Made by a program: the position numbers and the translations under genes
Part shown: one piece after another, positions 12,850 to 33,634 of the stretch
Layout of the letters: each line of letters begins with the position of its first letter
Numbering within the stretch: position 1 is the stretch's first letter
NCBI GenBank assembly: GCA_030041115.1
Contig: JASHOM010000071.1
Span: 1 to 50,700 of the forward strand
From: Vulcanimicrobiota bacterium
GTDB taxonomy: Bacteria > Vulcanimicrobiota > Vulcanimicrobiia > Vulcanimicrobiales > Vulcanimicrobiaceae
Reading direction: 5' to 3'
DNA: 50,700 nt
Notes under the pieces: generated by a model
Databases searched by the model: none
Told to the model about the DNA's origin: nothing
The model's input: the letters and a program-made list of their open reading frames with translations, nothing else

Positions 12850-13541
12850 GCCGGCGGTTCCTGGCCGCAGAGCGCGCGCAGCGCGCCGATGATCGCCAAC
12901 GGCGGCGGCGGGCATCCGGGCACGGTCAAGTCGACCGGCACCGCATCGGCGGCGCCGCCGGCGGACATGACGGACGGCCCGAAAATGCCGCCGCTGGCGG
13001 CGCAGGCGCCGACGGCAAGCACGCGCTTGGGCGACGGCATCGCCTCGTACGCGACCTTGAGCGGGCCGGCCATCTGCCGAGTGACCGGACCGACGACCAA
13101 AAGAACGTCGGCCTGACGAGGCGTCGGCGTGATGAAGATGCCGAAACGATGGAGATTGTACGAGGGTCCGGTCAGCTGTGCCAGCTCGTTCAAACACGAT
13201 CCGCAGTCGCCGGCGTCGATGATGCGAACGTGAATCGAATGCTTGAAGCGCGAGCCGAATCGTTCGACGGCGTCCGGATGCGCCCAGCGGACGTCATGGC
13301 GCCACTCCTGCGCCGATTTACAGCGCATGCAATCGACGCATCGATCCGGCTGGACGCCGACGACTCGGTCCTGAGCTTCGAGCGCGCCGGTCGGACAGCG
13401 CGCGGCGATCTCCGCGGCCTGCGCCGGCGTCGAAAACTCCGTGGCGCGCGGCAAACCCGGGGACAAGCTCTCCGGCAGCGCCTCGGGCGCGGGGCCTTCG
13501 GTCAAGACGCCGGCGCGCAGACCGCGCCAGAACCAGCTCAT
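12846..13541 (-). CDS. Ehr1: NuoB/HyfI-like small subunit with ferredoxin-like N-terminal segment
   Basis: MSWFWRGL...CPTGAL...CVDCMRC...DAGDCGSCLNE...VGACAASGGIF...VPGCPPPP: all four NuoB-type cluster cysteines retained. Confidence 0.85.
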   Translation of the reverse strand: MSWFWRGLRAGVLTEGPAPEALPESLSPGLPRATEFSTPAQAAEIAARCPTGALEAQDRVVGVQPDRCVDCMRCKSAQEWRHDVRWAHPDAVERFGSRFKHSIHVRIIDAGDCGSCLNELAQLTGPSYNLHRFGIFITPTPRQADVLLVVGPVTRQMAGPLKVAYEAMPSPKRVLAVGACAASGGIFGPSVMSAGGAADAVPVDLTVPGCPPPPLAIIGALRALCGQEPPA

Positions 13542-15097: not shown

Positions 15098-15099
15098 GC

Positions 15100-16524: not shown

Positions 16525-17189
16525 CGGATCCACTCCCGCAACGCCGCGAGGCCGCCCACTTCGGTCGTGCCGATGCGGCGATAGGCGGTTCGCGCGAGCA
16601 ATGCAACGATGAACGCGAGCAGCGGCACGTCGAACGCGATCGCGAGTTCGGCAATCAGAGGAAAGTCGGGCGCAACGGCGATTCCGGCGAGAAACGCCGC
16701 GTTCTCCATCGCGAGAATCCCGAGCAGCTGCGGCACGGCCTCCACGCGAACCGCAAGCAGAAACAGACCGACCAACAGACCGGCGACGCCCATCGCGAGG
16801 TTCCCCGCGGAGAGACTCGGCGCCGCGTGGATCAGCGGCTGCGCGAAGGCGTAGCCCACCAGCGTCAGCCCGAGCGAGATCAGCAGCGCGGCGGGGACGT
16901 CGATCGTCTGAGCGAGCTCGCGCCGTTGATTGATCTCACCCGGAACGAGCGCCCGGATCACCCACGGTATGATCACCACCTTGCTGAGCACCGTCACGCA
17001 CCCGAGCGCGACCAAGTGCCACGAAAGCGGCGAGGCACCCAGCAGAAAGGCCGATGCCGCCAGCAGCAGGGATTGCACGATGAACAACTGCATGCACGCG
17101 CCGATCTGACGCGTAACCGTCATTGCGATCGTCGCAATGATGAACAGGCCCAAGACCAGCGCGTTGAGCTCGACGATGATTCCGTTCAC
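16521..17189 (-). CDS. Ehr1: HyfE-like membrane subunit
   Basis: Hydrophobic ~222 aa protein; GTG 17189 (GTGA overlap); position in C-E-F-CD-I-B order; AMENAAFLAGI resembles the conserved LEN/MEN motif of NuoK/HyfE-type subunits. Confidence 0.8.
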   Translation of the reverse strand: MNGIIVELNALVLGLFIIATIAMTVTRQIGACMQLFIVQSLLLAASAFLLGASPLSWHLVALGCVTVLSKVVIIPWVIRALVPGEINQRRELAQTIDVPAALLISLGLTLVGYAFAQPLIHAAPSLSAGNLAMGVAGLLVGLFLLAVRVEAVPQLLGILAMENAAFLAGIAVAPDFPLIAELAIAFDVPLLAFIVALLARTAYRRIGTTEVGGLAALREWIR

Positions 17190-18136
17190 AGCCGCAGGAG
17201 CTCCGTTACCATCGCCGTCACCGAAACCACGAAGGCGGCGCCGAGAAACTCCGAGATTCGGAAGAGCCTCAGCTTCGCATACGACGACTCCACGACGACC
17301 ACGGCGACCACGAGCGCTACGATCTTGAGCGACACGGCTGCCGCGGCGCCGACGATCGCCACGATGCTCCCAGTGCTCGCCAACCCCCACGGTGTCGTGA
17401 GCACGTTGAGAAAGATGATCGCGAGCACCGTGAACTTCATGTAGCCGCCGTACTTCACCAGCGCGGCGGAGCGGCCGGAGAGCTCCAACGCCTTCGATTC
17501 GTCGATCATCGCGAGTTCGAAGTGCCCGCTGGGATTGTCGACCGGGATGCGCCCGGTTTCCGCTAAGATGATCATGAAAAAGGCGATCAGCAGCAGGATG
17601 TGAGACGGCGCGAAAAAGTTGGCGATCGGATGAACCCAGTGCTGCTGCACGATATACGGGATCGTCGAGTTCGCGATGAAGGAAACGGTAAAGAGCACGA
17701 CGATGATGACCGGCTCGGCGAGAAAGCCGACCATGCGCGTGCGGCTGGCTCCCATCGCGCCGTACGGATTGCCGGCATCGATCGCCGCCAGCGTAAAGAA
17801 GAGCCCGGACACGGCGAAAATGAAGCCGGCGGCCAGCATGTCTCCGGCGAAGGCGAGAAAGAGCGGGAAATCGGTCAATACCGGAATCAGCAGCGTGATG
17901 ATCAACGGCACGATGAAAATCAGATAGGGCGCCGTGCGGAAAAGCCAACTGCTCTCGGCCGATATTCGTTCGTCCTTGCCGAACAGCTTGCGAAGGTCCC
18001 GATACGGCTGAAAGATGCTCGGACCGCGCTTCGATTGGACGATCTCTTTGAGGCGCGCCAAGATGCCCGCAAAAAGCGGTGAAAGCAGCAGCACGAACGC
18101 AAGCTGCGCTAAATTGAGAGCGATGGACTCGGCCAT
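17186..18136 (-). CDS. Ehr1: NuoH/HyfC-like membrane subunit
   Basis: ARLKEIVQSKRGPSIFQPYRDLRKLFGKD; ILAETGRIPVDNPSGHFELAMIDE. ATG 18136 chosen because the upstream in-frame sequence (MELASAQAG...) is the riboswitch. Confidence 0.87.
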   Translation of the reverse strand: MAESIALNLAQLAFVLLLSPLFAGILARLKEIVQSKRGPSIFQPYRDLRKLFGKDERISAESSWLFRTAPYLIFIVPLIITLLIPVLTDFPLFLAFAGDMLAAGFIFAVSGLFFTLAAIDAGNPYGAMGASRTRMVGFLAEPVIIVVLFTVSFIANSTIPYIVQQHWVHPIANFFAPSHILLLIAFFMIILAETGRIPVDNPSGHFELAMIDESKALELSGRSAALVKYGGYMKFTVLAIIFLNVLTTPWGLASTGSIVAIVGAAAAVSLKIVALVVAVVVVESSYAKLRLFRISEFLGAAFVVSVTAMVTELLRL

Positions 18137-18171
18137 TGTATCGAGAGAGTTTCTCCTAGCGAGCGCCGTCG

Positions 18172-18219
18172 ACCTAGGAGCCATCATCCCTGCCTGGGCG
18201 CTCGCGAGCTCCATCGCGT
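18172..18219 (-). promoter_or_regulatory. fluoride riboswitch (crcB motif), copy A, upstream of Ehr1 operon
   Basis: Minus strand CGCGATGGAGCTCGCGAGCGCCCAGGCAGGGATGATGGCTCCTAG: P1 CGCG/CGCG, pseudoknot GGAGC/GCTCC, P3 CCC/GGG followed by ATGATGGC. Confidence 0.82.
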
Positions 18220-18229
18220 GTGATCAGGT

Positions 18230-19003
18230 GTGAGTATACAGAATCCGCCGCTATGCGGGCAAGAAGGAATAGCCGCCCGTAGGGAAGGATTAGCGCCATC
18301 CGGTGTCAACGGTCCGAGCGTGCCGCACAACGTTGGGGACTTTGCGAAGACAATCGACGTGCTCACGCACGATCTTCCCGGATCCGCACGAAGCCTTCTG
18401 GCGCACGCTCCCGATTCGGCAAACGTAACCGCTGACGTAACGGCATGCCTTCTCGGTCGCGATCTTTGGTATCCGCAATTAGCGGCCTTTCGCGATTGGC
18501 TGCTCGAAAGCGGCGAGCGGCCGCACTTGTGGACTTTCGATTTTTGTCCGTCCGGCGCGTGGAACTCCGCGCCTTGGAATGCCCTGTCGCTGCCGGCGCG
18601 AATCTTGCGAGCGCGAGCCGGCGCGGTGGATCGCGAAGTGCAGGGGCACGTGTCGCCGGTGAGCCTCGCGATGAAGCGCCGCGAATTCGAAGCCGGGCTC
18701 GCCGAGCTGGAGCGAGCCGGAGGCTACGGCGCGGATGCGCGAAGGTTTGCAGCGGTCGCCGCGCACGCCGATTTGCGGACCGACCTCTCGTTGATCGAAA
18801 TTCTGTCGCACTGGCTGGCCATGCTGAAGCACCGCGAAAAAGTGCTTGCGGACCGGCACGCCACCGGCTTTGAAGTGCACGGGTATCGCGAGGCGTGCTC
18901 CGCGTGCAAGACGCGTTGGGGCATTCGGCCGTTCGAGCCTCGATGGGCTCCGCCGTTCCACCCGGGATGCCGTTGCTTCTCACAACCACGATTCACGAAC
19001 TAG
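18230..19003 (+). CDS. hypothetical protein with C-terminal CxxC...HPGCRC motif (start uncertain)
   Basis: 257-aa ORF ending YREACSACKTRWGIRPFEPRWAPPFHPGCRCFSQPRFTN, divergent from Ehr1. Confidence 0.6.
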   Translation: MSIQNPPLCGQEGIAARREGLAPSGVNGPSVPHNVGDFAKTIDVLTHDLPGSARSLLAHAPDSANVTADVTACLLGRDLWYPQLAAFRDWLLESGERPHLWTFDFCPSGAWNSAPWNALSLPARILRARAGAVDREVQGHVSPVSLAMKRREFEAGLAELERAGGYGADARRFAAVAAHADLRTDLSLIEILSHWLAMLKHREKVLADRHATGFEVHGYREACSACKTRWGIRPFEPRWAPPFHPGCRCFSQPRFTN

Positions 19004-19446: not shown

Positions 19447-21366
19447 CTACCAATGTCGAATCGACGGGTAAAGAGCGAGTAACAGAATCGTGAATACCAA
19501 GATGTACGTGAGGTACGCGGCGATGACTCCGGATTGCGTCGCGCGGATGAGGTCCGAAATCCGCAGAATCGCCGCGAACATGCGCCGATAAAAGGGAAGA
19601 CCGATGCGCTCCTTGGCGTTGAGGATGACTTGCGTCGGATGAGCGTAGCCGGTTCCGCTGTACTGCGTCCACGCCCGATATCGCTCGCCCGACGTCCAGA
19701 CCGCCGCGCGGGCCGCCGGCGGACGAGCGAACAGCCGCGACAGCACCCAGAACAAGGCCGTGAATCCGGCAATGACTGCGGCCAAGCCGGGCGCGGATAT
19801 GGATGAGAAGCCGCTGAAGGCAGGTTGAACGAGCGGGACGGTTCCGACGATCGCCCGCATGACGCCGGTTCGGGCGATTGACGCGACGGCCGGCCCGAGG
19901 CGATCGAGGATCGGGCTCGAGAAAATTCCGGCTCCGACGATCGCCGACGATCCCGCCGCTAACGCCGTCAATCGCCATGGCGAACGGGTTTCGCGCGCTT
20001 GGGCGGCCTGCGGCGACCTCGGCGCGCCCAGCAATCCGGCGCCGAGCAGCTTCGTGACCGCGACGACGGCAACGCCGGCGGTGATACCGATGAGCGCACC
20101 GGCCACCGCAAAGATCACTTCGAAGGTAACGTTGCCGGTACGAAAGGCCTGCATGAACGACTCCAGCACAAGCCATTCCGCAACGAAGCCGGCCGTGGGC
20201 GGCAGCGCCGCGAGCGACATTGCACACAGCAGAACCGCAATCGTCGTCACCGGCATGACCCGCCCCAGACCTCCCAAACGATCGATCGACGCCGTCGAAC
20301 AGGCGCTCGATATCGAGCTGATCGCGAGAAAGAGCGTGGACTTGGCGAGCGCGTGGGCGAGAATCTGCGCGTATGCCGCCGCGATGCCCAGCCCAACGAG
20401 CACGTCCAAGTGCAGGATTTTTGCCGCTACCGCCACTCCCAGCGCCGCAAGGATGACGCCGCCGTTTTCGACGCTCGAATAGGCTGCCAATCGCCGCATG
20501 TCGCGTTGAATGACCGCCCACGAGATCCCGAGGAACGCCGAAAGCGCTCCGAGGACGATGGCGAGAACGGCGAACCATACCGGCGGATCCGGAAAGCCCA
20601 CGATGAATCGCACGACCCCATAGAAGCCGACGTTCAACGCACCTCCGGCCATGAGAGCCGCGACCAAAGAGGGCGCGGCGCGATAGCCGTACGGCATCCA
20701 GACCTGCAGCGGCAGCAAGCCGAACTTCGCGCCGAAGCCGATCAGCAAGAGCAGCAAGAGCACGCCGCGCACCGCGGCGTCGAGCGTCGCTCCGCTGGCG
20801 ACGACCGGACCGACGCCGAAGCCGTGTGCCGCATTTGCCAAGAAGAGCAGCGCGCCGATGAGGCACGCTCCGGCAACGTGAGTGATGCCGATCGTGAGAT
20901 ACGCAGCCGTGGCCGAATCGGAGTCGGTGCCGCAATATGCGATGGCCCAGAAAAAGACGAGCGCGAGAAGCTCCCACGCAAAGACGAAGAACAGCACGTC
21001 CCCGGCGCAGCAACACAACAGCGAAGCAAAGGCAATGGCGTTTGCCGTGGCGCTCGTCGTCCGGCCCGTGCCGCGTTCGTCCTTCGTCGCGGGACCTAGC
21101 CCGAAGATCGCGACGAGCGCCGCCACGACGCCGATGGTTCCGGCGAAAAAGGCCGCGGTGCCGTCGAAGTAGAGGACCGTATGAAGGTTCGCATCGCCGA
21201 ACGCAAGCGGAGTTGCGCCGAGCTGCCGAATGGACGCATCGCAGGTTGCTAGTGCTCCGAAGCCGAGAAAGACGAAGCCGGCGGTTCGTCCGGCGCGGCC
21301 GGGTAGAACGATGGCTGCCGCCGTTCCGACGAGATAGCACGCGAACGCAGCGATCAGGACGATCAC
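19447..21366 (-). CDS. Ehr2: NuoL/HyfB-like antiporter-type membrane subunit
   Basis: GTG 21366 (GTGA overlap); FVFAWELLALVFFW; GFGAKFGLLPLQVWMPYGYRAAPSLVAALMAG; HALAKSTLFLA. Confidence 0.83.
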   Translation of the reverse strand: MIVLIAAFACYLVGTAAAIVLPGRAGRTAGFVFLGFGALATCDASIRQLGATPLAFGDANLHTVLYFDGTAAFFAGTIGVVAALVAIFGLGPATKDERGTGRTTSATANAIAFASLLCCCAGDVLFFVFAWELLALVFFWAIAYCGTDSDSATAAYLTIGITHVAGACLIGALLFLANAAHGFGVGPVVASGATLDAAVRGVLLLLLLIGFGAKFGLLPLQVWMPYGYRAAPSLVAALMAGGALNVGFYGVVRFIVGFPDPPVWFAVLAIVLGALSAFLGISWAVIQRDMRRLAAYSSVENGGVILAALGVAVAAKILHLDVLVGLGIAAAYAQILAHALAKSTLFLAISSISSACSTASIDRLGGLGRVMPVTTIAVLLCAMSLAALPPTAGFVAEWLVLESFMQAFRTGNVTFEVIFAVAGALIGITAGVAVVAVTKLLGAGLLGAPRSPQAAQARETRSPWRLTALAAGSSAIVGAGIFSSPILDRLGPAVASIARTGVMRAIVGTVPLVQPAFSGFSSISAPGLAAVIAGFTALFWVLSRLFARPPAARAAVWTSGERYRAWTQYSGTGYAHPTQVILNAKERIGLPFYRRMFAAILRISDLIRATQSGVIAAYLTYILVFTILLLALYPSIRHW

Positions 21367-22103
21367 GAACGGCCTCTTGCCGCCGCATACCCGAGCGCGA
21401 CCCAAAGACCGTGTAGAATGGTCAGGGGCGACGGCGGCGTCCCGGGGATGAACACGTCGACGGGCAGCACGTCGCTGACCGGACCCAAAACGGCGATGCT
21501 GCGCGAAAAGATGCCGCCCGAACATGCCGACGTTCCCAGCGCAACGACCAGCTTGGGCTGCGGCATGGCCTCGTGGGCCGCAAGCAACGGCTGGGCCATC
21601 GCCCGGGTGACGACCCCGGTGACCACGAGCACGTCGGCATGGCGAGGCGTCGCGGTCAGGAAAATTCCCAACCGGTTTGCATCGTAGAACGGGTTGAAGA
21701 TTGCTTGAAGCTCCTGCTCCTCCGAGCCGTCACTGCCGGCGTCGACGTGACGAAGATGAACGGAGCGGCCCAACCCGCGCACTCGTTCGCGCAGCAGGGA
21801 TCGCACCTCGTCCGGGTTGCCCGCCACTTCGGCCAACTCGAACTCGTTTCGCATGCCGAACGCCTCGGGCGACCGGCGCGCGCACTCCCCGCATTGAAAG
21901 CAACGCTTGCGATCGACGCGCGCTCGCGCGCCGGCCGCGGTGAGCGCGCTCGACAGGCAGGCGCCGGCACCGAGAGCCTGCGCTTCGACGTTCGCCGGCA
22001 GGCTCTCGACCGCGCCGCGATAGGCGGGCGCCATCGAATCGGCCCGCAGCGGGTAACGCGTGCTGAGGATGCCGCGACGCAGACTATATCCGATCCAACT
22101 CAT
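21363..22103 (-). CDS. Ehr2: NuoB/HyfI-like small subunit lacking the four NuoB-type cluster cysteines
   Basis: MSWIGYSLRRG...CFQCGEC...HVDAGSDGSEEQEL...NRLGIFLTATPRHADVLVVTGVVTRAMAQPLL...ALGTSACSGGIF...VFIPGTPPSP. Confidence 0.83.
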   Translation of the reverse strand: MSWIGYSLRRGILSTRYPLRADSMAPAYRGAVESLPANVEAQALGAGACLSSALTAAGARARVDRKRCFQCGECARRSPEAFGMRNEFELAEVAGNPDEVRSLLRERVRGLGRSVHLRHVDAGSDGSEEQELQAIFNPFYDANRLGIFLTATPRHADVLVVTGVVTRAMAQPLLAAHEAMPQPKLVVALGTSACSGGIFSRSIAVLGPVSDVLPVDVFIPGTPPSPLTILHGLWVALGYAAARGRS

Positions 22104-23464
22104 CGGTCGACCTCGGACTGGCTGGCGGCAAACGAGTGCTCGATGAAGGAAAAGTCGGTAAAGATATTTCCCGGTAACGACGGGACGAAGAGCGGCCAGT
22201 TCGCGTACGACGGCGGTCGAATCGCTACCCGCATCAGGCGGCCGCCCTCGATTCGAACGAAGTAGATGAGCTCGCCCTGGGGAGCCTCCACTCGCGCGAA
22301 TCCGCAGCCGTCGCGCGGCGCGGCCTTCGCGAGCCAATCGCCCGGCGGATTGGCGCTGAGCGCATTTCGAATCAGCTGAAACGAGCGCTGAATTTCGGCC
22401 GCCCGTACGAGTGCTCGCGCGGCGGCGTCGCCGTTGCTTTCCAGCACCTCTTCGCCGGTCAGCGGCGTGTAGAAGTAATCGTCCCCGGTGCGAGCGTCGC
22501 ACGAAACGCCGCTGCCGCGCGCGACCGGACCCACCGCGCCGAAGCGAACGACCTGCTCGTAGGTGAGCTTGCCGGCTCCAATCAAACGATCGAGCAAGGA
22601 CTGCGTCGAAACGAGAGTTTGCACGACGCTGCGCGCATGTCGTTCGACCTCTTCCAATTCCCGGTCGCATGCTTCGCGCAGCGACGCGAGCACGTCGAAG
22701 CGAGTGCCGCCGACGCAGCAAACGCCGCGGCCGAAACGATGCCCCGTCCCGGCGGCGAGCAGACGATGCACCCGTTCCTTCGCGGCAAACGTTTGCGCCG
22801 AGCCGACCGACAGCGAACCGTCGTCGGCAAGCTTTCCTAACGAGTCGAGATGCTGCGCTACGCGTTCGAGCTCGACGAGCACCGAGCGGGCGGCGCGGGC
22901 GCGCTCGGGCACGTGCACGTCGGCCACCGTTTCGACCGCCCGGCAAAACGCGGCGGCGTGACTGGAGGCGGTCGCCCCGGAAACGTGCTCGGCGACGAAC
23001 GGCGCCAGTTCGAGCTCGACGCCCACGAAACGTTCCTCCAACCCACGATGCTTGAAGAACATCGACGGCGCCACTTCGACGAAGGTCTCGCCCGCCGTGT
23101 CGATCGTCCAACGCGCCGACTCGACGATCCCGGAGCGGATCGGCCCGTACAACACGGTCGAGATTTCCGGCGACTCCCGCTTTCGCAGTTCGTCCGGCGG
23201 CTCGACGCGGACCAGCGGCCGGTCGTCGCTCAGGTTTTCGAACTCGAGTCCGAAACGGTCGCGTATCTCCCGCTCGTACCACTCCGCCGCGGGCGTCACC
23301 GGAGTCAACGATTGTACGCTGCCGGCCGCATCGCTGCCGACGTCAACGAGCGAAGCACCGTTGGCGAAAACGTAGTGCAGTCGCGTCTGCCGACCGATCC
23401 GGTCGGCGAATATCCAGGCTAATCGCTCGCCTCCGGCAACGCGGCTGCGCGCTTGCGCGCTCAT
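22100..23464 (-). CDS. Ehr2: NuoCD/HyfG-like large subunit without [NiFe] ligands
   Basis: ATG 23464; AEWYEREIRDRFGLEFENLSDDRPL (NuoC-like); L1 position EHVSGATASSHAAAFCRAVE; C-terminus DFSFIEHSFAASQSEVDR with no CxxC. Confidence 0.83.
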   Translation of the reverse strand: MSAQARSRVAGGERLAWIFADRIGRQTRLHYVFANGASLVDVGSDAAGSVQSLTPVTPAAEWYEREIRDRFGLEFENLSDDRPLVRVEPPDELRKRESPEISTVLYGPIRSGIVESARWTIDTAGETFVEVAPSMFFKHRGLEERFVGVELELAPFVAEHVSGATASSHAAAFCRAVETVADVHVPERARAARSVLVELERVAQHLDSLGKLADDGSLSVGSAQTFAAKERVHRLLAAGTGHRFGRGVCCVGGTRFDVLASLREACDRELEEVERHARSVVQTLVSTQSLLDRLIGAGKLTYEQVVRFGAVGPVARGSGVSCDARTGDDYFYTPLTGEEVLESNGDAAARALVRAAEIQRSFQLIRNALSANPPGDWLAKAAPRDGCGFARVEAPQGELIYFVRIEGGRLMRVAIRPPSYANWPLFVPSLPGNIFTDFSFIEHSFAASQSEVDR

Positions 23465-24906
23465 TGCCGCCCCGCAAAGATAGCCGCCGCGTTCGTCAGG
23501 AGAACCCGCAAGGGCGGCGGCACGAACAATCCGAGGCCGAGCACGACGGCAAATGCCAGAAACATCGAAGCGATCGCTCCGACGTCGCGCTCGCCGCACG
23601 GCATGTCCGCGGGCGGCGACCCGACGGTTACTCGCGTCGTCCAGCGCATCAGACCCGCAAATGCCGTAACGAGCAATCCCAGGACGACCGCCGCCACGAC
23701 CCATCTGCCGCTGTCGAAGCCGCCGGAGAGCACCATGAGTTCGCTGCGGAACAATCCGAAAGGCGGAAGTCCCGCGAGGGCGAGCCCCGCAAAGGCGAAG
23801 AGCGTTCCCGACGCCGGAAGCACCGCAACGCCCCCGCTGATCTTCGAGATCTCGCGCGTGTCGAAGCGCGCGGCGAGGCGCCCGGCTCCGAAGAACGCCA
23901 GCGCTTTGGTCGCGGCGTGATTGATCACGTGGAGCAATGCGCCGGTCACGGCGAGCCGGGCACCGAAGGCGAGGCCGCAGGCAATGAGCCCCATGTGCTC
24001 GATGCTCGAATAGGCGAGCATTCGTTTCAGATCGCGCTGCTGCAGCAGGAAGAACGCGCCGACGAAAAGCGAGAGCAGGCCGACGACGAAGAACAAGTGG
24101 AGCGTCAATCCGCTGCCGGCCGCGGCGTTCGCGATGGCGGCAAAACGAACGATGACGTACAAAGCATCGGATAGCAGCACGCCGGAGAGCATGGCGCTGG
24201 TGGGCGTCGGCCCGGCACCGTGGGCATCGGGAAGCCAGGTGTGCATGGGCGCCAAGCCGGCCTTGGTTCCGAAGCCGATGAGCGCCAGCATGAAGGCGAG
24301 CCGCACGGCGTCCTGATTCAGTTTGCCGGCAACGCTCATGTACGCGGTCCAGCTCGGCGCGTAGTGTGCCGGGAGGACCCCGGTTCCGGCCGCATACATC
24401 ACCACGACTCCGAGCAAGCCGATCGCCAACCCGCACGAAGCGATCAAGATGTACTTCCAGGCCGCTTCGAGCGCATTTTCGGTGCCCTGAAGCCGGACGA
24501 GAAGTGCGGCCACGATCGTGGTGACTTCGAGCGCGACCCACATGCCGGCCAGATTCGTCAGCAGCGGAACGACCGTTTCGGCGCATGCGAAGGCGTTCGT
24601 GAGCGCGAGAAATTCGCGACGGTACGCCTCGTCTCCGTCGACCCCTATCGCCTCGACGCGCACGTACCACGTGCCGTAGAGCCCGACGGTGCCGTAGACG
24701 ATCGCAACCGGCAGCAGAAAAACGGCCGAAAGCGCGTCGAGAGGCCCCGCACCCGCGGCGGTGCGCACGACGGCCGCCAGTATGCAACCGGCGGTGACGA
24801 GACCGCCGGCGGCCGTGCAGACGCGTCCTATGCGCGAGGGAACGAGCAGCGTCACGAACGCGAGCACGAGAGGAACGGCGATCGCCGTTGCGATGATTGC
24901 GTTCAT
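23461..24906 (-). CDS. Ehr2: NuoN/HyfF-like antiporter-type membrane subunit
   Basis: GFGTKAGLAPMHTWLPDAHGAGPTPTSAMLSGVLLSDALYVIVRF; YSSIEHMGLIACGLAFG. Confidence 0.87.
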   Translation of the reverse strand: MNAIIATAIAVPLVLAFVTLLVPSRIGRVCTAAGGLVTAGCILAAVVRTAAGAGPLDALSAVFLLPVAIVYGTVGLYGTWYVRVEAIGVDGDEAYRREFLALTNAFACAETVVPLLTNLAGMWVALEVTTIVAALLVRLQGTENALEAAWKYILIASCGLAIGLLGVVVMYAAGTGVLPAHYAPSWTAYMSVAGKLNQDAVRLAFMLALIGFGTKAGLAPMHTWLPDAHGAGPTPTSAMLSGVLLSDALYVIVRFAAIANAAAGSGLTLHLFFVVGLLSLFVGAFFLLQQRDLKRMLAYSSIEHMGLIACGLAFGARLAVTGALLHVINHAATKALAFFGAGRLAARFDTREISKISGGVAVLPASGTLFAFAGLALAGLPPFGLFRSELMVLSGGFDSGRWVVAAVVLGLLVTAFAGLMRWTTRVTVGSPPADMPCGERDVGAIASMFLAFAVVLGLGLFVPPPLRVLLTNAAAIFAGRQ

Positions 24907-25574
24907 CCGCGCAACCGTTGGAAGACGGCGATGCCGGCGGCGTCATGCCGCTCGACCAGCGCCCGCACGAGCACGCCGAAGACCACGACGGCAACGAGCG
25001 CGTCCAAGAGCAGCAACACGCCGATGATGAACGGCAGGCCCGGAGCCAAAGTAACGGTCCCGAAGAACAGTCCGTCCTCGAGCGTGAGGAAGGCGATGAC
25101 TTGGGCCAGCGCGTTGGGCCGCAAGATGGCGACGAGGAAGCCGACGAAGACCATCGACAGCGCCGTTGCCAAGTCGGCCTGCGGCAAAAATGCCCCTTGA
25201 TGAAGCGGAAGCTGAATCGAGGTCAGTACGGCCAGGCCGATGAGCGCGCCGGCGAGCAAAAGCGACGCGAGCACGTTGATTCGAGCGGGAAGCTCGACGC
25301 GCGACGATATGTTGCGAACCAGTCCTTGCATGTAACGCGGCAACAGCGTCCCCTTGAAAACGATGGTGAGAACGGCCAAGAGCAAGAGATCCCAGGCCCA
25401 TCCCTCCGTCACGCCCACTCCAAAGCAGATGGCGGCTACGAGCCACGCTTGAATCGCATACACGCGAATGAACTCGGCGATGACCATCGATCGAAAAAGC
25501 GAAAGCTGCACGAGCAGCAAGAGCATCGCTATGGTTCCGGCAAAGGCTTCCGGAACGGTCAGCTGGTGCAGCAT
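24903..25574 (-). CDS. Ehr2: HyfE-like membrane subunit
   Basis: Hydrophobic 223 aa; FLTLEDGLFFGTV near the conserved LEN position; ATGA overlaps on both sides. Confidence 0.78.
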   Translation of the reverse strand: MLHQLTVPEAFAGTIAMLLLLVQLSLFRSMVIAEFIRVYAIQAWLVAAICFGVGVTEGWAWDLLLLAVLTIVFKGTLLPRYMQGLVRNISSRVELPARINVLASLLLAGALIGLAVLTSIQLPLHQGAFLPQADLATALSMVFVGFLVAILRPNALAQVIAFLTLEDGLFFGTVTLAPGLPFIIGVLLLLDALVAVVVFGVLVRALVERHDAAGIAVFQRLRG

Positions 25575-26533
25575 CAGCCGACGCCCACGACATAGGCGAA
25601 GATGGCTATCAGCGCCACGAGAAGCCCGGTCCCGATGAATTCGGTGATCTTGTAAAGCCGCAGCTTGGCGAAGGTCGTCTCGATGGCGGCGACCACGACG
25701 CCCAGGGCCAGCATCTTCGCAAAAAGACTAACGATCGCGAATGCCACCGATGCCACGCTGCCGCTCGACGAAAGGCCCATCGGCAGCAGCAACACGTTGA
25801 GGAAGACGGTGTAAAGCAAGAACTGCTTCATCGAGCCGCCCCATTTGTAGAGCGCCATCCAGGGGCCCGAATGCTCGAAGAGCCGCGCGTCGTCGATCAT
25901 TCCGAACTCGATCGTCGCGGACGAGCTCTCGATCGGAATCCGTCCGGTGTCGACCAGCAGCATCATGAAAAAGGCGGCGGCGGCCAGAACGTGCGCGGGG
26001 CGCAGTACGTCGGCGGCGGAATGTCGCAACGCGGCGTTCAGTGCGTACGGCAGGTCGGTGCCGGTAATGAAAGCAACCGAAAAGAAGACGAAAATGAGCG
26101 TCGGCTCGACCAAGACGCCGACCATGACCGCGCGACTGCTGCCGATGTGTGCGTACTGCGAGCCGGAATCCAACGCCGCGAGCGCCGTCGCAAAGCCGGC
26201 GAGCGCCAGAACGAACGCGCCGCCGAGAATATCCCCGTAGGTCGCGCCCGGAAGCGGATACGTCGTAAGAACCGGAATGAGCGTTGCAACCGTCGCGTAG
26301 CAGCCGCACGCGACGAACGGCGCCGCTCGAAAAATCCAAGACGACGGTTCCGGAATGATCGCCTGCTTCCGAAAGAGCTTGAGGATGTCCCGGTACACCT
26401 GAAATATCGACGGCCCGTAACGCCCCTGAATTATCGCTTCGAGCCGAGCGATGCAGCCGGTAAGCAACGGCGAAAGCAGCAGCAGGCACAAAACCTGCGC
26501 GGCTTGGACCAAAATCGGACTTAGGGTTGCCAC
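25574..26533 (-). CDS. Ehr2: NuoH/HyfC-like membrane subunit
   Basis: GTG 26533; ARLEAIIQGRYGPSIFQVYRDILKLFRKQ; LLVDTGRIPIESSSATIEFGMIDD. Confidence 0.87.
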   Translation of the reverse strand: MATLSPILVQAAQVLCLLLLSPLLTGCIARLEAIIQGRYGPSIFQVYRDILKLFRKQAIIPEPSSWIFRAAPFVACGCYATVATLIPVLTTYPLPGATYGDILGGAFVLALAGFATALAALDSGSQYAHIGSSRAVMVGVLVEPTLIFVFFSVAFITGTDLPYALNAALRHSAADVLRPAHVLAAAAFFMMLLVDTGRIPIESSSATIEFGMIDDARLFEHSGPWMALYKWGGSMKQFLLYTVFLNVLLLPMGLSSSGSVASVAFAIVSLFAKMLALGVVVAAIETTFAKLRLYKITEFIGTGLLVALIAIFAYVVGVG

Positions 26534-26562: not shown

Positions 26563-26606
26563 CTTCACGAATGCTCCGACAAAAGCGGTTGCTTTGTCAG
26601 GAGCCA
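26563..26606 (-). promoter_or_regulatory. putative expression-platform hairpin of copy C
   Basis: Minus strand GCTCC-TGACAAAGC-AACC-GCTTTTGTC-GGAGC; its 5' arm is the aptamer pseudoknot strand. Confidence 0.6.
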
Positions 26607-26663
26607 TTGGCCTTTGCAGCAGTTTGCGCTGCCGAAAGCAGCTCCGGCGGACTCCTCCGCCGC
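26597..26663 (-). promoter_or_regulatory. divergent fluoride riboswitch (crcB motif), copy C, upstream of Ehr2 operon
   Basis: Minus strand GGCGGAGGAGTCCGCC ... AAAGGCCAATGGCTCCTG: P1 GGCGG/CCGCC, AGGAG/CTCCT pseudoknot; extra internal hairpin GCTGC-TTTCG-GCAGC; P3 not canonical. Confidence 0.6.
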
Positions 26664-26706
26664 TATTGCCTTTCGAGTGCTTTGCGAGCGATACCTTTGC
26701 AATCCG

Positions 26707-27009
26707 TCAACGTTTCGATCGCCGCGACCTCATTCCAAATCCAAGCATCAAGGACGCCATCGCCAACGCAAGCGGAACTTCTGCGATCAGGATAAAGCGC
26801 AGCAGCATCGCGTCGTGGCGTAAGGCTGCGCCGAATGCGATCCCGAGCAACATGAGGCCAAACGTGGAAATCGCTCGAACGGTAAGACGTCCGGCCGCGC
26901 GACCTCCGTCGAGATGCTTGCAGTCGGGTGCGTCGCACAGCTCCCAGCTATCGGGGCTTCGCAAATGCGGGCGCGGCGGCGTGACGCCGTGCAATGAGTC
27001 CTGCTTCAT
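26707..27009 (-). CDS. small membrane protein (~2 TM) preceded by fluoride riboswitch copy D
   Basis: SD GGAGGAATC-ATG; AISTFGLMLLGIAFGAAL and LLRFILIAEVPLALAMASLMLGFGMRSRR hydrophobic segments; not CrcB-like by eye. Confidence 0.7.
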   Translation of the reverse strand: MKQDSLHGVTPPRPHLRSPDSWELCDAPDCKHLDGGRAAGRLTVRAISTFGLMLLGIAFGAALRHDAMLLRFILIAEVPLALAMASLMLGFGMRSRRSKR

Positions 27010-27020
27010 GATTCCTCCAC

Positions 27021-27073
27021 GCAGGAGCCATCAGCCGCAGCCTGCGACCAATCACGGCGAGCCCCATCGCCCG
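27021..27073 (-). promoter_or_regulatory. fluoride riboswitch (crcB motif), copy D
   Basis: Minus strand GGGCGATGGGGCTCGCCGTGATTGGTCGCAGGCTGCGGCTGATGGCTCCTGCG: P1 GGCG/CGCC, pseudoknot GGGGC/GCTCC, P3 GTCGC/GCGGC. Confidence 0.87.
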
Positions 27074-27169
27074 ATCGGTCGCACTTCGCACAAGGTTGAG
27101 CGGGTCCTCTACGTAACGCCGCTTCGACGAACAGGTTTGCGCGATATCGACGCAAATATAAAGGACCGT

Positions 27170-27222
27170 ACGGCGATGGAGCTCGCCCGCGAGCGTCGCA
27201 AACCGGCGACTAACGGCTCCTG
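27170..27222 (+). promoter_or_regulatory. fluoride riboswitch (crcB motif), copy E, upstream of MutS-like pair
   Basis: CGGCGATGGAGCTCGCCCGCGAGCGTCGCAAACCGGCGACTAACGGCTCCTGG: P1 GGCG/CGCC, P3 GTCGC/GCGAC, pseudoknot GGAGC/GCTCC. Confidence 0.85.
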
Positions 27223-27241
27223 GATTACGGGGACACCATCG

Positions 27242-28771
27242 ATGACTTTCCACAGCATCCTTTACGACCGATCGGCTCCTGCGGTCGCCGACATGGGCGC
27301 GACGCCCGAGTGCATTCGCGACCTCAACATCGATCAGATCATCGATGCGATCGTGCGGGGAAGGGAGGAGTACGATCTCGCGCCCTTCTTTCTGATGCCG
27401 CTGGCCACGATGGAAGCCGTCGGCTACCGGCACGAAGTCATGCGCGATCTCCAAGAAGGCGCCGTGCTCGAGTGCGTCGCCGAGTTCGCCGATGCGATGC
27501 GATCGACGCGGAAGATCCTCGCGCACTCCGCCAAGCTCCGAACTCACCAACAGACGCGCTTGTTTCTCGATGCCGTGCGTGCGTACGACGCGGCCGTCGT
27601 TCGTTTGTGCGAGAAACTCGAGCGCTCCAGCGCCAAATCGGCGGGGCTTCGCGCTTTCTGTGCGTTCCTCGCCGCGTACGTGCAGTCCGAGCAATTTCGG
27701 GCTCGAACTTCGGCTTCCGGCGCGCTGCTCCGGGAGCTCGATGCGATTCGCTATTCCGTTCGCATCAAGGAAAACACCGTCACGGTGGGGCGCTACGAGG
27801 ACCGTCCCGACTATAGCGACGAGGTCGCGCGGACGTTCGAGAAATTCAATCAAGGGGAAGTGCGCGACTACCTCGTCGCCGGCCGCGATTCCATCGAGAT
27901 GAATCACGTCGAGGAACGCATCCTCGCGCTGGTGGCGCGGCTGTTTCCGGCGACGTTTGCGAAATTGACGGAATTCGAAGAGCATCATCGCAGTTTCGTC
28001 GACGCGACCGTGACGCGGTTCGACCGCGAGATACAATTCTACCTCGCGTACCTCGAATACATGAACGAATTTGCGGCCTCGGGCTTGTCGTTTTGTTATC
28101 CGCACGTCTCGACCGACGGCGGCGACAGCGCCGTTCGGGACACCTTCGATGCGGCTCTCGCCAAGAGGCTGCGCGACGCCGGGCGTGAGGTCGTGGTCAA
28201 CGACTTCGCACTGACCGGCGGGGAACGCGTCCTCATCGTATCGGGGCCGAACCAAGGGGGCAAGAGCACCTTCGCTCGCACGTTCGGTCAGGTGCACCAT
28301 TTTGCAAGCATCGGTTGCCCGGTCGCAGGCAGCGCGGCGCGGATCGCCCTGTTCGACCGGATCTTCACGCATTTCGAGCGGGAGGAGCGGGTCGAAAGCC
28401 TTCGCAGCAAGCTGGAGGACGATCTGCTCCGGATGCGCGACATTTTGCGCGACGCAAGCGAACGCAGCATCGTCATCTTGAATGAAATCTTTGCATCGAC
28501 GACGCGCAGCGACGCCTATTGGCTCGGACGGCAGATGCTGGCCAAGATCTTGAGGATCGGAGCGCGTTGCGTCTGCGTTACGTTCCTCAACGAGCTGGCG
28601 CACGGAGACGATCGGATCGTCAACATGGTGAGCACGGTGGTTGCGGACAACCCCGCTGTGCGAACGTTCAAGGTGGTCCGGCGCGCCGCGGGCGAACCTT
28701 CGTATGCCGCCACGCTCGCGGAAAAGCACCGGCTGACGCACGATTTGGTAAAAGCTAGAATACGATCATGA
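27242..28771 (+). CDS. MutS-like ATPase (MutS domain V type), first of pair
   Basis: ATG 27242 (MTFHSILYD); Walker A GPNQGGKSTFARTFGQ, Walker B SIVILNEIFASTTRSD. Confidence 0.88.
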   Translation: MTFHSILYDRSAPAVADMGATPECIRDLNIDQIIDAIVRGREEYDLAPFFLMPLATMEAVGYRHEVMRDLQEGAVLECVAEFADAMRSTRKILAHSAKLRTHQQTRLFLDAVRAYDAAVVRLCEKLERSSAKSAGLRAFCAFLAAYVQSEQFRARTSASGALLRELDAIRYSVRIKENTVTVGRYEDRPDYSDEVARTFEKFNQGEVRDYLVAGRDSIEMNHVEERILALVARLFPATFAKLTEFEEHHRSFVDATVTRFDREIQFYLAYLEYMNEFAASGLSFCYPHVSTDGGDSAVRDTFDAALAKRLRDAGREVVVNDFALTGGERVLIVSGPNQGGKSTFARTFGQVHHFASIGCPVAGSAARIALFDRIFTHFEREERVESLRSKLEDDLLRMRDILRDASERSIVILNEIFASTTRSDAYWLGRQMLAKILRIGARCVCVTFLNELAHGDDRIVNMVSTVVADNPAVRTFKVVRRAAGEPSYAATLAEKHRLTHDLVKARIRS

Positions 28772-30294
28772 CGCTCAAGGCGCACCTGATGTACGCCGAC
28801 CGCGATTTTTCATTTCGCAGCGTCGTGCCGATCACCGAGGGCGAGGTCGCTGCGGATCTCGAGCGAGATGCGCTCGTCTCGGCGATGGCCGCCGGCGATC
28901 CCGTCGTTGCGGAAGTCGCGACCGAGGCGCTCTGGAACGGCCTGACCGATTTGGCCGCGATCCGGTACCGTCAAGCTGCGCTCGGCGACGCCGTCGCGAA
29001 TTCCGCCGCGGTTCGAGAGCTGTACGAACTTGCCGTCGAGGCGCTCGAAGCCGAACGCCGCGCGTTTCTGCTCGGGCTCGTCGGGCGAACGCCGGGCTCG
29101 GTACTCTTCCGGGCGGTGGAGCTGCTCGAATTATTGGAGGAGCGGCTGCGCCGGCTACGGGCCTTCGCCGACAAAAATGCGGCCCGGTTCGGGTCGGTTG
29201 CCTTCACCAATTTGTTCGACATGCTCCGGCGCGAGCTCGGCGACGATTACCTGGGAATCGTTCGAGAGCACTTGGGAGACTTGCGATTTACCGACGGCGT
29301 GTTGTCGAGCGCGCGCTTGGGTCCCGGCAACAAGGGAGTGGACTACGAGCTTCACCGCATCGTCCAGTCGGAGGGCTGGCTTCGCCGCGCGTTTGGGGCC
29401 CGCGGGCAGCAGGCGTATTCGTTTAGGATTCCGGATCAGGACGAGGGCGGCGCGCGCGCGCTGGCAGCCCTCAAGGATCGAGGAATAGCGCGCGTCGCCG
29501 ACGCGCTCGCGCGCTCGATGGATCACATCCTGTCGTTCTTCAAGATGCTCAGGACGGAGCTCGCCTTCTACGTCGGATGCCTCAACATCCGCGAAGCGCT
29601 CGCCGCGGCGGGCGCACCGGCCTGCACGCCTACGCCGTGCTCCGCGGCCGACGCAAAGCGCAACGCCACCGGACTCTACGATCCGTCGCTGGCGCTGACC
29701 CTGGGACGCTCCGTCGTGCGAAACGATCTCGCGGCCGACGGTAAGGCGCTCGTGCTCGTCACCGGAGCAAATCGCGGCGGGAAATCGACGTTTTTGCGCA
29801 GCCTCGGGCTTGCCCAGCTAATGATGCAGTGCGGAATGTTCGTCGCGGCCGAACGCTTCGAGGCCAGCGTCTGCCGGGGAGTCTTCACGCACTACAAACG
29901 TCAGGAAGACCCGACGATGCAAAGCGGTAAATTCGACGAAGAGCTCGTTCGAATGAGCGCGATCGTCGATGCCGTGGTGCCGGGTTCGCTCGTGCTCCTC
30001 AACGAGTCCTTCGCCGCGACCGACGAACGCGAAGGCGCGGAGATCGCTCATCAGGTCGTCACCGGGCTGATCGATTGCGGCGTCATCGCGTGCTTCGTAA
30101 CGCATCAGTACGAACTAGCCGAACGCTTCATGACCGAGGGCCGCACGGACGTCCTCTTCCTGTTGGCCGAGCGGCGAGACGACGGATCGCGCACGTTCCG
30201 AATCAAACCCGGACGCCCGCTGGAGACGAGCTACGGCAAAGACATTTACGATCGCATCTTCGACGACGCCGGCGCGACGACGGTCCCGCCCTGA
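28768..30294 (+). CDS. MutS-like ATPase, second of pair
   Basis: ATGA overlap with the first; Walker A GANRGGKSTFLRSLGLAQLMMQCGMFV, Walker B GSLVLLNESFAATDEREGAEI, CFVTHQYELA. Confidence 0.88.
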   Translation: MTLKAHLMYADRDFSFRSVVPITEGEVAADLERDALVSAMAAGDPVVAEVATEALWNGLTDLAAIRYRQAALGDAVANSAAVRELYELAVEALEAERRAFLLGLVGRTPGSVLFRAVELLELLEERLRRLRAFADKNAARFGSVAFTNLFDMLRRELGDDYLGIVREHLGDLRFTDGVLSSARLGPGNKGVDYELHRIVQSEGWLRRAFGARGQQAYSFRIPDQDEGGARALAALKDRGIARVADALARSMDHILSFFKMLRTELAFYVGCLNIREALAAAGAPACTPTPCSAADAKRNATGLYDPSLALTLGRSVVRNDLAADGKALVLVTGANRGGKSTFLRSLGLAQLMMQCGMFVAAERFEASVCRGVFTHYKRQEDPTMQSGKFDEELVRMSAIVDAVVPGSLVLLNESFAATDEREGAEIAHQVVTGLIDCGVIACFVTHQYELAERFMTEGRTDVLFLLAERRDDGSRTFRIKPGRPLETSYGKDIYDRIFDDAGATTVPP

Positions 30295-30908
30295 CTTCGT
30301 CCGATCGCAGCGGCCCGGCGTACCGCGATCGAGGTCCGCGCAAGACTGACCGCGCCGCGACCGATCAAGCTGCGCATCGCGCGCTCGACGTGCTCCACCA
30401 GCGCCGAGCGCAAGCGCTGCTCGAGCTCGGCGATCCATCCGTCGATCTCCGCAAAGGAGCAGGCCGCGTCCGGAAGGATCTCCCGCTCGTCGTCCACCTC
30501 TATCCGCGGCAACGCAATTCTTCGCGGCGGGCGGGGCGGCTTCGCGAGATCGCCGGCTCCTTGCGCGGCGGCTCGGACGAAGCGCTCCTGCGCTGCGAGC
30601 AAGGCTTCCGCATAGAATCCAAAGCGCGCCCGGAACCGCACGCCGGCATTTTCGAACGCCATCTGAGCGCAACGCATGGCCACCAGCTCCGAATGGCTGC
30701 GGGTCAGAGCCGCGCTCAAGTCCGGAGCGAGCGTGCCCAGCGAGAGGAAATGGTCCGCGAGCTCTTCGCGCGCCCGCCGCACGGGCTTCGCAACGAAACG
30801 ATCGAGCGTCGAAAGATCGGTTCGACAGCCGGACTCGAGCACCACGCGCGCCGCGGCTTCATCGTCGCGAAGGATCTGCCAGGCGGCGTTGACACGGTCA
30901 GCCGTCAT
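30246..30908 (-). CDS. helical hypothetical protein, second gene under riboswitch copy B
   Basis: 220 aa; ATG 30908 overlaps the upstream gene end by 11 nt; convergent with MutS-like 2 (49-nt overlap). Confidence 0.65.
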   Translation of the reverse strand: MTADRVNAAWQILRDDEAAARVVLESGCRTDLSTLDRFVAKPVRRAREELADHFLSLGTLAPDLSAALTRSHSELVAMRCAQMAFENAGVRFRARFGFYAEALLAAQERFVRAAAQGAGDLAKPPRPPRRIALPRIEVDDEREILPDAACSFAEIDGWIAELEQRLRSALVEHVERAMRSLIGRGAVSLARTSIAVRRAAAIGRSQGGTVVAPASSKMRS

Positions 30909-31230
30909 CGAGAACGATCGCCGCGTCGTCGAAGAACAGGTCCTCTACGGTTTCGTGCTGACGCAAGCGAGTTTTGAGCTCGGCAATTCGCGCTTGCAGC
31001 TCCTTGGCCCGGCCCAAAATGACCTCGCGGCCGGCAAAGGCGCCCGCGTTGCGCATGCGCTCCGTTTTGAGCTTGCGCATCGATTCCTGGAGCTCGAAAT
31101 GCTCGCTGGCATAATGGCGCTCGATTTCGTAAAGCCTGCCGCTGCGCTCTTGGAGTTTCTCGTTCGCCCACTGCAGCCGAGCCTCGAGATCTCGGCAACG
31201 CTCCTGCAGTTCGGCGACTTGATCGGCCAC
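30898..31230 (-). CDS. coiled-coil protein, first gene under riboswitch copy B
   Basis: GTG 31230; MADQVAELQERCRDLEARLQWANEKLQERSGRLYEIERHYASEHFELQESMRKLK heptad-rich. Confidence 0.65.
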   Translation of the reverse strand: MADQVAELQERCRDLEARLQWANEKLQERSGRLYEIERHYASEHFELQESMRKLKTERMRNAGAFAGREVILGRAKELQARIAELKTRLRQHETVEDLFFDDAAIVLDDG

Positions 31231-31248
31231 GACCTAACCTCACTCTCG

Positions 31249-31299
31249 TTGAGGAGCCATCAGCCTTTTTGGCGCTTGTTCGGCGAGCTCCATCGCCCT
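31249..31299 (-). promoter_or_regulatory. fluoride riboswitch (crcB motif), copy B, upstream of coiled-coil pair
   Basis: Minus strand AGGGCGATGGAGCTCGCCGAACAAGCGCCAAAAAGGCTGATGGCTCCTCAA: P1 GGCG/CGCC, P3 GCC-AAAAA-GGC, pseudoknot GGAGC/GCTCC; very close to the canonical aptamer. Confidence 0.9.
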
Positions 31300-31361
31300 C
31301 GGAAACGTTGCTTCGCGGAGGAATAGAGAACGATCCTGCGAATTTCGTTCGTGTTAGTTTA

Positions 31362-31446
31362 CGGGCGATGGAGCGCCGCCTTCGACCGCCGCGTCAGAAG
31401 CGTCGTCCCCGACGGGACGATGCGGCGATGCGGCTAATGGCTCCTT
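31362..31446 (+). promoter_or_regulatory. fluoride riboswitch (crcB motif) with extended P3, copy F, upstream of NUDIX-dynamin operon
   Basis: CGGGCGATGGAGCGCCGCC ... CGCCGC[GTCAG...CCCGACGGGACGAT]GCGGCGATGCGGCTAATGGCTCCT: P1, long P3, GGAGC/GCTCC pseudoknot. Confidence 0.78.
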
Positions 31447-31475
31447 TCTCGAGATGCGATCTTGGGAGGAACCTT

Positions 31476-31937
31476 TTGAATCAATACGTGGTTCGGATCA
31501 GCGCGGCGATTCTACGCCCCGGTGACGAGGTATTGGTGGTTCGACAGTTGGATCGCGGTCTCGAACGCATCAACCTCCCGGGCGGGATGGCGCATTTCAA
31601 CGAGTCGCTGAAGGAGGCACTCGTGCGCGAAGTTCGCGAGGAGACCGGCTTCGAGGTCGTTCCGACCGAGATCGCATTCGTTGCGGAGGGGTACAACGAC
31701 CGGTGGCCCGATCCCACTTTGGAAATCTGTTTCTACGCGACGGCCGTACGGCAGATCGAGCCGCCCGACCGGATGGGCGAGCAAATTCTTTCCGTCGAAT
31801 GGGTCGCGTTGGACGACCCGCGGCTTCTGCGCTCCGCCCCGCAGGCCGAGAATTTTCGAATTAGCAAGCGCGGTCTTTACGTCGACCAAACGAGCGCGAC
31901 CGCGCGCAAGATCAAGAAACGCTCCAAGCAATCATGA
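31476..31937 (+). CDS. NUDIX hydrolase
   Basis: TTG start with SD GGGAGGA; GGMAHFNESLKEALVREVREETGFEV matches the Nudix box pattern GX5EX7REUXEEXGU. Confidence 0.92.
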   Translation: MNQYVVRISAAILRPGDEVLVVRQLDRGLERINLPGGMAHFNESLKEALVREVREETGFEVVPTEIAFVAEGYNDRWPDPTLEICFYATAVRQIEPPDRMGEQILSVEWVALDDPRLLRSAPQAENFRISKRGLYVDQTSATARKIKKRSKQS

Positions 31938-33634
31938 TCGAATCCGCCCTCGAGCGAATCCAAGCCCTCGCCGAGTGGGTCGGTGACGCGACCGCCGCGG
32001 GACTCGCTCGCGAACTTTCCGAACAAATACCTCGCGGCGAGCTGAACCTGCTCGTGCTCGGGCAATTCAAGCGCGGGAAGAGCTCGCTGGTCAACGCGTT
32101 GCTCGGCGACGACGTCATGCCGACCGGAGCCTTGCCGCTCACCGGCGTCACGACGACCATACGATACGGCGACGAAGGGCGGATCGAAGTTTCGCTCGGA
32201 AGCTCGCCGCAAAAACGGCTGATCGCCGTGGACGAGTTGCCGAACTACGTCACCGAAAAATGCAATCCCGCGAACCGGCTCGGCGTCGAGCGCGTGGAGA
32301 TTCTTTGGCCTTCGGAAAGGATTCGCGGCTTCGCGCTCTTCGACACGCCGGGCATCGGTTCGACATACGCTCACAATACCGCCGCCGCTCACGCCGCCTT
32401 GCCCCGCGCCGACGTGGCCGTGCTGGTCGTCGGCCCGGAGCCCCCGATCGGAGCGGAGGAGCTGCAATACGCGCGCGACGTGATCTCTTCGTCCGAACGG
32501 CTTTTCGTCGTGCTCAACAAGAGCGACATTGCAGGCGAGGCTTTGCCCGAGATCCTGAGCTTCACGCGAGATGCCCTGCGCAACGTGCTTGGACCGGACA
32601 ACGAGGTCGACGTCGTGCCGCTCAGCGTGACTCGAGCCCGCGAAGCCCAGCGCGACGGACGCCGAGACTCGGCTTTCGAATCGTTCGTCGAGTCGCTGCG
32701 CCGGCTTGCGGATCACCAAGGCGATGCGGTGCGCGAGCAGTCAACTCGGCGGCGCGCGGTCGCAATCGTCGAGCGGCTCGATGCGCTCGCGGCAATGCGA
32801 GTGGCCGCACTGGAACTTCCGCGCGAGGAACGAGAACGGCGCAAAGCGATGATGGAAGGCGCTTTGCAGCTCATTGCCGACCGTGCCCGCGCGCTCGAGC
32901 TGGTCGTCGACGATGACGTGAATCGCCTAAGCCAAGAGATGGAGGCGGAGTTCGGACGGTGGTACGACCGCGATGTGCCGCTTCTTCGCGCGATGGCGGC
33001 GGAGCTGTCCGAAGAGTCGTCGTCCGAACGCCGCACGGAGCGCTTGGAGAGCGCGATCGCCGCGCGAGCGTCGGCTTGGCGTCAAGCCGCCGTCGAAGAT
33101 GCGACCGCTCAACTGAACGCGCACGCGGCCAAGTACGGACGTCTTCTCGGCGAGATCGAAACGTCGGCGCTCCAGACCGGATGCGAAATATTACGCATCG
33201 ATGCCGGCTCCCTCATCGCCCGCAACATCGAGTTTTCGCCTGCGAAGCTCGATCTGGCCACATCGGTCATGCCGACGACCGGCTTGGAGATCGTCGTCAC
33301 CGCGGCACTTCAAGCGCTGCCGGGGCCGCTTCGCAAGCCGTTGCTCAAACGGCGCTACGACGACGTGCTGGCACGCGAGCTCGACGCTCTGCGCGGAAGG
33401 TTGCGCTATGGCGTCGCACGCGATCTCGAGCCGTGGCGAAAATCGGTGCGCGCCAAGATCGTCTCGTCGATCGAGTCGATCCGTCACGCGATCCTTGCCG
33501 GGTTCACCAGCGCCGGCGAACCGTCCGACCCCGAAGCGCCCGAGCTCGAACGAGCGAGAGGGCTTCGGCGGGAGCTCCACGATTTACGCTCGACGTTGGC
33601 GACACGCGAGGAGACGAACGCGCTGGCTCCGTAG
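31934..33634 (+). CDS. dynamin-like GTPase
   Basis: ATGA overlap with nudix gene; P-loop GQFKRGKSSLVNALLG, switch TGVTTT, G3 DTPGIGS, G4 NKSD. Confidence 0.9.
   Translation: MIESALERIQALAEWVGDATAAGLARELSEQIPRGELNLLVLGQFKRGKSSLVNALLGDDVMPTGALPLTGVTTTIRYGDEGRIEVSLGSSPQKRLIAVDELPNYVTEKCNPANRLGVERVEILWPSERIRGFALFDTPGIGSTYAHNTAAAHAALPRADVAVLVVGPEPPIGAEELQYARDVISSSERLFVVLNKSDIAGEALPEILSFTRDALRNVLGPDNEVDVVPLSVTRAREAQRDGRRDSAFESFVESLRRLADHQGDAVREQSTRRRAVAIVERLDALAAMRVAALELPREERERRKAMMEGALQLIADRARALELVVDDDVNRLSQEMEAEFGRWYDRDVPLLRAMAAELSEESSSERRTERLESAIAARASAWRQAAVEDATAQLNAHAAKYGRLLGEIETSALQTGCEILRIDAGSLIARNIEFSPAKLDLATSVMPTTGLEIVVTAALQALPGPLRKPLLKRRYDDVLARELDALRGRLRYGVARDLEPWRKSVRAKIVSSIESIRHAILAGFTSAGEPSDPEAPELERARGLRRELHDLRSTLATREETNALAP

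Follow-up and report, generated by a model that had tools for sequence, protein, structure and literature searches.

The window, that is, the whole 50,700-nt stretch of DNA analysed here, belongs to a draft genome of 2.6 Mb that is 95% complete (G000). Eremiobacterota is used below as the phylum name for this genome and its relatives. At the locus under study, a fluoride-riboswitch aptamer (copy F) is followed by a NUDIX hydrolase gene and by a gene for a fluoride-associated dynamin-like GTPase, fDLP (Table 1).

The NUDIX and fDLP reading frames overlap by ATGA, and the TTG start of the NUDIX gene lies 30 nt from the 3' end of the aptamer. The sequence-only reading had described two such overlapping genes downstream of copy F, and this was borne out by the coordinates and the domain matches. 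Both reading frames were intact. The Nudix box (GX5EX7REUXEEXGU) was preserved in the window protein, as were the G1, G3 and G4 motifs of fDLP (GQFKRGKS, DTPG and NKSD), which are conserved among its relatives. The TTG start was also kept in three related genomes (G007, G015 and G017).

Table 1. Features of the copy F operon and of the surrounding fluoride island (positions in the window)
Feature	Positions	Strand	Basis
Aptamer ahead of second complex-I-like operon 10714-18139 (-)	18168-18227	-	RF01734 26.2 bits; R1 42.3 bits
DUF190-related gene	18230-19003	+	hmmsearch E 7.8e-46, profile from two DUF190 proteins
Degenerate aptamer ahead of complex-I-like operon 21363-26533 (-)	26591-26670	-	RF01734 20.5 bits; R1 11.7 bits, E 0.3
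Aptamer ahead of small gene 26707-27009 (-)	27015-27080	-	RF01734 32.2 bits
Aptamer ahead of MutS-like gene pair 27242-30294	27163-27229	+	RF01734 22.9 bits; R1 35.2 bits; U41C
Divergent fluoride riboswitch of coiled-coil genes 30898-31230 and 30246-30908 (-)	31244-31306	-	RF01734 39.4 bits, passes cut-off
Fluoride-riboswitch aptamer copy F	31364-31446 (model match 31355-31453)	+	RF01734 28.6 bits, E 5.7e-4; model R1 33.5 bits, E 3e-8
Pseudoknot 5' strand GGAGC, pairing with GCTCC 31440-31444	31370-31374	+	covariation over the 17 seed copies
Alternative hairpin, aptamer 3' strand GGCTCCT with Shine-Dalgarno region GGGAGGAACC, predicted OFF state	31439-31473	+	minimum-energy fold
Likely Shine-Dalgarno GGGAGG of NUDIX gene	31464-31469	+	sequence; 6 nt 5' of TTG
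NUDIX hydrolase gene	31476-31937	+	153 aa, TTG start; PF00293 62 bits, E 5.6e-17
fDLP gene	31934-33634	+	566 aa; PF00350 78.5 bits (cut-off 27), E 7.9e-22

Copy F and its expression platform

The score of copy F fell below the Rfam gathering cut-off for RF01734 (34 bits), a shortfall that the length of an insert in its P2 loop probably explains. Both helices, the pseudoknot and the conserved ion-site letters of the RF01734 structure were present. The insert, of about 34 nt, is self-complementary, lies within 31390-31430 (+) and is missing in relatives. The aptamers ahead of the orthologous NUDIX genes lack it and are otherwise nearly identical to copy F; they scored 41.8 (G007), 37.3 (G015) and 35.7 bits (G017), above the cut-off.

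At the fluoride site, copy F retains A6, U7, G8, U38, A40, U41, G42 and U48, in a numbering that we take from the T. petrophila aptamer structure. Its single unusual letter there is G39A. The possibility that this change breaks the aptamer was rejected when the pattern was compared over 105 cross-phylum copies, since 19 of them carry it.

Of the 17 seed copies of a covariance model (R1), relatives within the phylum or family supplied 14, and the others came from the window (three copies, not F) and other phylum members; copy F was outside the seed. In the seed alignment, 98.6% of cells were paired, 23 cells had changes on both sides, and the pseudoknot, too, showed covariation. Covarying helices and pseudoknot were likewise seen in the 105 cross-phylum copies. 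A search of the window with R1 recovered copy F and four more copies clearly, and the 26591 copy weakly. At the strict Rfam cut-off five of the six window copies were missed, so that the custom model was needed. Copy F is a real fluoride-riboswitch match, and fluoride control of the operon appears well supported by these comparisons.

The alternative hairpin overlies the Shine-Dalgarno sequence of the NUDIX gene. In copy F, the hairpin was borderline against shuffled sequences (z -1.83, p 0.055). In 37 Eremiobacterota leaders, which include related ones and hence are not independent, the GGCUCCU strand paired downstream better than in shuffles (mean z -1.73, combined p 3e-13). Seventeen leaders reached p 0.05 singly, some pairing being expected by chance because GGCUCCU is inherently complementary to a Shine-Dalgarno site. 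The partner sequences varied between leaders with complementarity kept, and several sister-leader hairpins ended in terminator-like U-runs.

This arrangement suggested how the switch may act. Without fluoride, the GGCUCCU strand would pair with the downstream ribosome-binding site. Fluoride-Mg binding would hold the strand in the aptamer pseudoknot, and expression would be released. The helices, pseudoknot, ion-site letters and proposed ON-switch logic are those of the fluoride riboswitch (crcB RNA motif, RF01734).

The fluoride island in the window and in relatives

Copy F is one of six fluoride aptamers that lie in the window within a span of 13 kb. The neighboring riboswitch at 31244-31306 points away from the NUDIX-fDLP operon, and the 26591 copy has lost core letters. 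The island shares mutS-like and formate-hydrogenlyase-like genes with the targets described for the motif in 2010 (PMC2864571). It differs from the cases described in the literature examined in its dynamin-like and NUDIX targets, in the six copies in 13 kb and in the P2-loop insert of copy F.

Each of the two complex-I/formate-hydrogenlyase-like operons (10714-18139 and 21363-26533, both -) has its own aptamer and encodes NuoH, antiporter, 49-kDa- and 20-kDa-type subunits. The tandem proteins of about 509 aa at 27242-30294 (+) had MutS domain V as their sole Pfam match. Their NCBIfam matches include a KamC-like ATPase, so that 'DNA repair' may misname the fluoride-riboswitch mutS genes. The two small coiled-coil-like genes at 30246-31230 (-), which follow the strongest riboswitch copy, had no Pfam match; homologs occur in most islands. 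For the DUF190-related protein, a Pfam search alone gave no match. Outside the window, another strong fluoride aptamer (L056, G000:C132, 1192-1241) lies about 150 nt before a gene for an SBP_bac_11 extracellular solute-binding protein.

The islands of relatives contain three to eight clustered riboswitch matches. Common to them are a complex-I/formate-hydrogenlyase-like operon, a MutS-domain-V gene pair, coiled-coil genes, a DUF190 relative, NUDIX and dynamin. In G007 and G017 the operon runs riboswitch-NUDIX-fDLP-DUF190-CrcB, the last being the known fluoride channel. Neither CrcB (PF02537) nor CLC (PF00654) was found in the 95% complete draft of G000. The absence of CrcB from G000, yet not from the same operon of these close relatives, may reflect loss of the exporter or a gap in the assembly.

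Recurrence of the riboswitch upstream of fDLP genes

The dynamin alignment was scanned against 84,980 species genomes, and 80 loci were retained, the RNA being ignored in the choice. A same-strand riboswitch was present within 600 nt upstream, mostly at about 100 nt, in 54 of the 77 loci that had upstream sequence. The pairing spans about ten phyla, archaea included, and fDLP is mostly the first gene after the aptamer. The sequence-only reading had named a lack of recurrence in such a survey as one part of what would count against a dynamin under a fluoride riboswitch; the result was the opposite. As to the fluoride-linked NUDIX-dynamin pair that it proposed, the dynamin half stood on these loci, and the NUDIX link recurred in Eremiobacterota only. 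Outside that phylum, no NUDIX gene was found beside fDLP among the loci surveyed.

An enlarged set of 112 fDLP homologs was made up of the survey loci, 27 homologs from the class of Desulfacinum (by Pfam search) and a few island members. A riboswitch was found upstream of 75 of them. On the other hand, none of 25 control dynamins of related genomes had one (Fisher p 9e-11, which is optimistic because some rows are identical or related), and an association of the riboswitch with dynamin genes in general was rejected. Within the Desulfacinum class alone, the counts were 17/27 for the fDLP subfamily and 0/20 for the other dynamin subfamily (p 5e-6). Judged by these gene neighborhoods, the riboswitch is specific to one dynamin subfamily.

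Rfam's own model at its curated cut-off was positive at 18 of 19 rechecked loci, with 16 matches directly ahead of the dynamin gene; these loci were drawn from the model-positive ones, so the check bears on the model and not on the rate. No switch was found for the other 37 of the 112 homologs, among them one 15-member Syntrophobacteraceae clade. A switchless subclade, mainly of this family (L119, L129, L131, L137, L202, L208, L210, L211 and L213-L216), offers a natural comparison group.

The fDLP homologs formed a single group in the tree, separate from the control dynamins. Rows with a switch belonged to Eremiobacterota, Acidobacteriota, Planctomycetota, Omnitrophota, Actinomycetota, Nitrospirota, Thermodesulfobacteriota, Bacillota and archaea (names as in the draft-genome records). 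The switch label required 17 changes on the tree, compared with 37-41 in shuffles. Deep placements are unsure because of long branches.

At fDLP loci, neighboring riboswitches stand ahead of genes for CrcB, a Na+/H+ exchanger, DUF190, HAD and Usp proteins. Genes for exporters, Na+/H+ antiporters and HAD proteins are established targets (PMC11139923). In a Nitrospirota sample, fDLP followed only 1 of 22 riboswitches, and fDLP as the main riboswitch target was rejected for that phylum. The dynamin is usually behind a switch, but the switch is rarely before a dynamin.

Fold and likely role of fDLP

The AF2 model of fDLP, built with 58 homologs, had a pLDDT of 90 and a pTM of 0.84. A long helical neck and trunk follows the GTPase domain, as in dynamin-like proteins. 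The model aligned with IniA at Z 23.8 over 506 residues and with BDLP at Z 18.7 over 517. Both matches run along the whole protein, and their large rmsd comes from a different bend between the domains. IniA was also the best solved-structure match by sequence (E 8e-13). No transmembrane helix was seen in fDLP. Residues 430-470 form a candidate tip segment that could contact lipid, in a region that was weakly predicted (pLDDT 62-66 around 441-460).

IniA binds anionic lipid, severs membrane tubes by GTP-driven fission and is induced by drug stress (PMC6715688). Mycobacterial IniA and fDLP are alike in whole-length fold, in size (about 600 aa) and in having a single GTPase domain, and the IniA gene, too, is stress-induced. 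They differ in sequence (17% identity) and in the inducer, which for IniA is cell-wall drugs. The BDLP of Nostoc and the LeoA family share the GTPase with helical neck and trunk, and the LeoA profile matched fDLP; the tip of fDLP is weakly predicted. We know of no fluoride riboswitch control of IniA and of no fluoride link for BDLP or the LeoA family. A role of fDLP in membrane remodelling or protection is suggested by its IniA/BDLP-like predicted fold.

The aptamer, the operon and its recurrence were established at the level of sequence, and the fold is a prediction. Taken together, we consider it probable that copy F acts on the NUDIX-fDLP operon as a fluoride ON switch and that fDLP is a membrane-remodelling GTPase induced in fluoride/HF stress. 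The protein would most likely work as an IniA/BDLP-type GTPase, mending or reshaping the cytoplasmic membrane during HF entry and stress on the proton gradient. The NUDIX enzyme would probably remove nucleotides altered or accumulated under fluoride. Induction by fluoride in vivo, like the substrate and housekeeping role of the NUDIX enzyme, is what we infer.

It is also conceivable, though unlikely, that fDLP is under fluoride control without being a membrane-repair enzyme, and that it serves a partner, for instance CrcB, DUF190 or the neighboring complex-I-like proton pumps, by assembling, clustering or protecting it. The operon that it shares with DUF190 and CrcB in G007 and G017, and the transport or proton-pump genes of the islands, would fit such a role. 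However, an adjacent exporter is missing at most fDLP loci (CRCB profile matches in 12 of the 101 searched), and the fold is of the membrane-remodelling dynamin type.

Decay of copy F in G000, which would leave the window operon out of fluoride control with the family still under it, seems rather improbable. The P2-loop insert and the lower score of copy F are what decay might produce. No CrcB or CLC was found in G000 and one or two other copies look degenerate, the 26591 copy having lost core letters, so the window island may be decaying. Against this, copy F has kept its ion-site core letters, with G39A common enough elsewhere; P2 loops vary across the aptamer family; and the NUDIX and fDLP frames and motifs are intact.

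Least probable is that only the neighborhood is shared, fDLP being a general membrane-stress or anti-phage (LeoA-like) dynamin that borrows the island switch: the PADLOC LeoA profile match (E 1.8e-17) makes a defence role possible, and bacterial DynA delays phage lysis (PMC8844932), but the association holds across about ten phyla with fDLP mostly first after the aptamer.

The Enterobacter cloacae FRM fluoride-resistance operon likewise places several defence genes, crcB included, under a fluoride riboswitch; it differs in containing eno, ppaC, uspA and gpmA, and no dynamin or NUDIX is named among its six genes (PMC5533749). In the literature examined, NUDIX was not named as a fluoride-riboswitch target, and no link was found between the fluoride riboswitch or crcB and bacterial dynamins; this literature did not cover the target list of Baker et al. 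2012, so the link may have been noticed earlier.

Descriptions of fluoride defence name export, pH control and the replacement of enzymes that fluoride inhibits. That the riboswitch-dynamin pairing recurs in about ten phyla suggests a branch of this defence in microbes that has been overlooked. Whether fDLP represents a dedicated family of dynamin-like GTPases that is induced by fluoride and spans both domains, with membrane remodelling as a general, unrecognised arm of fluoride defence, perhaps even without CrcB or CLC, is a proposal on which we are evenly divided. If fluoride-switched dynamins do extend from archaea to Actinomycetota, membrane remodelling would join the list of fluoride defences. 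Bacterial dynamins, whose triggers are to our knowledge mostly unknown, would gain a natural inducing signal and hence an assay.
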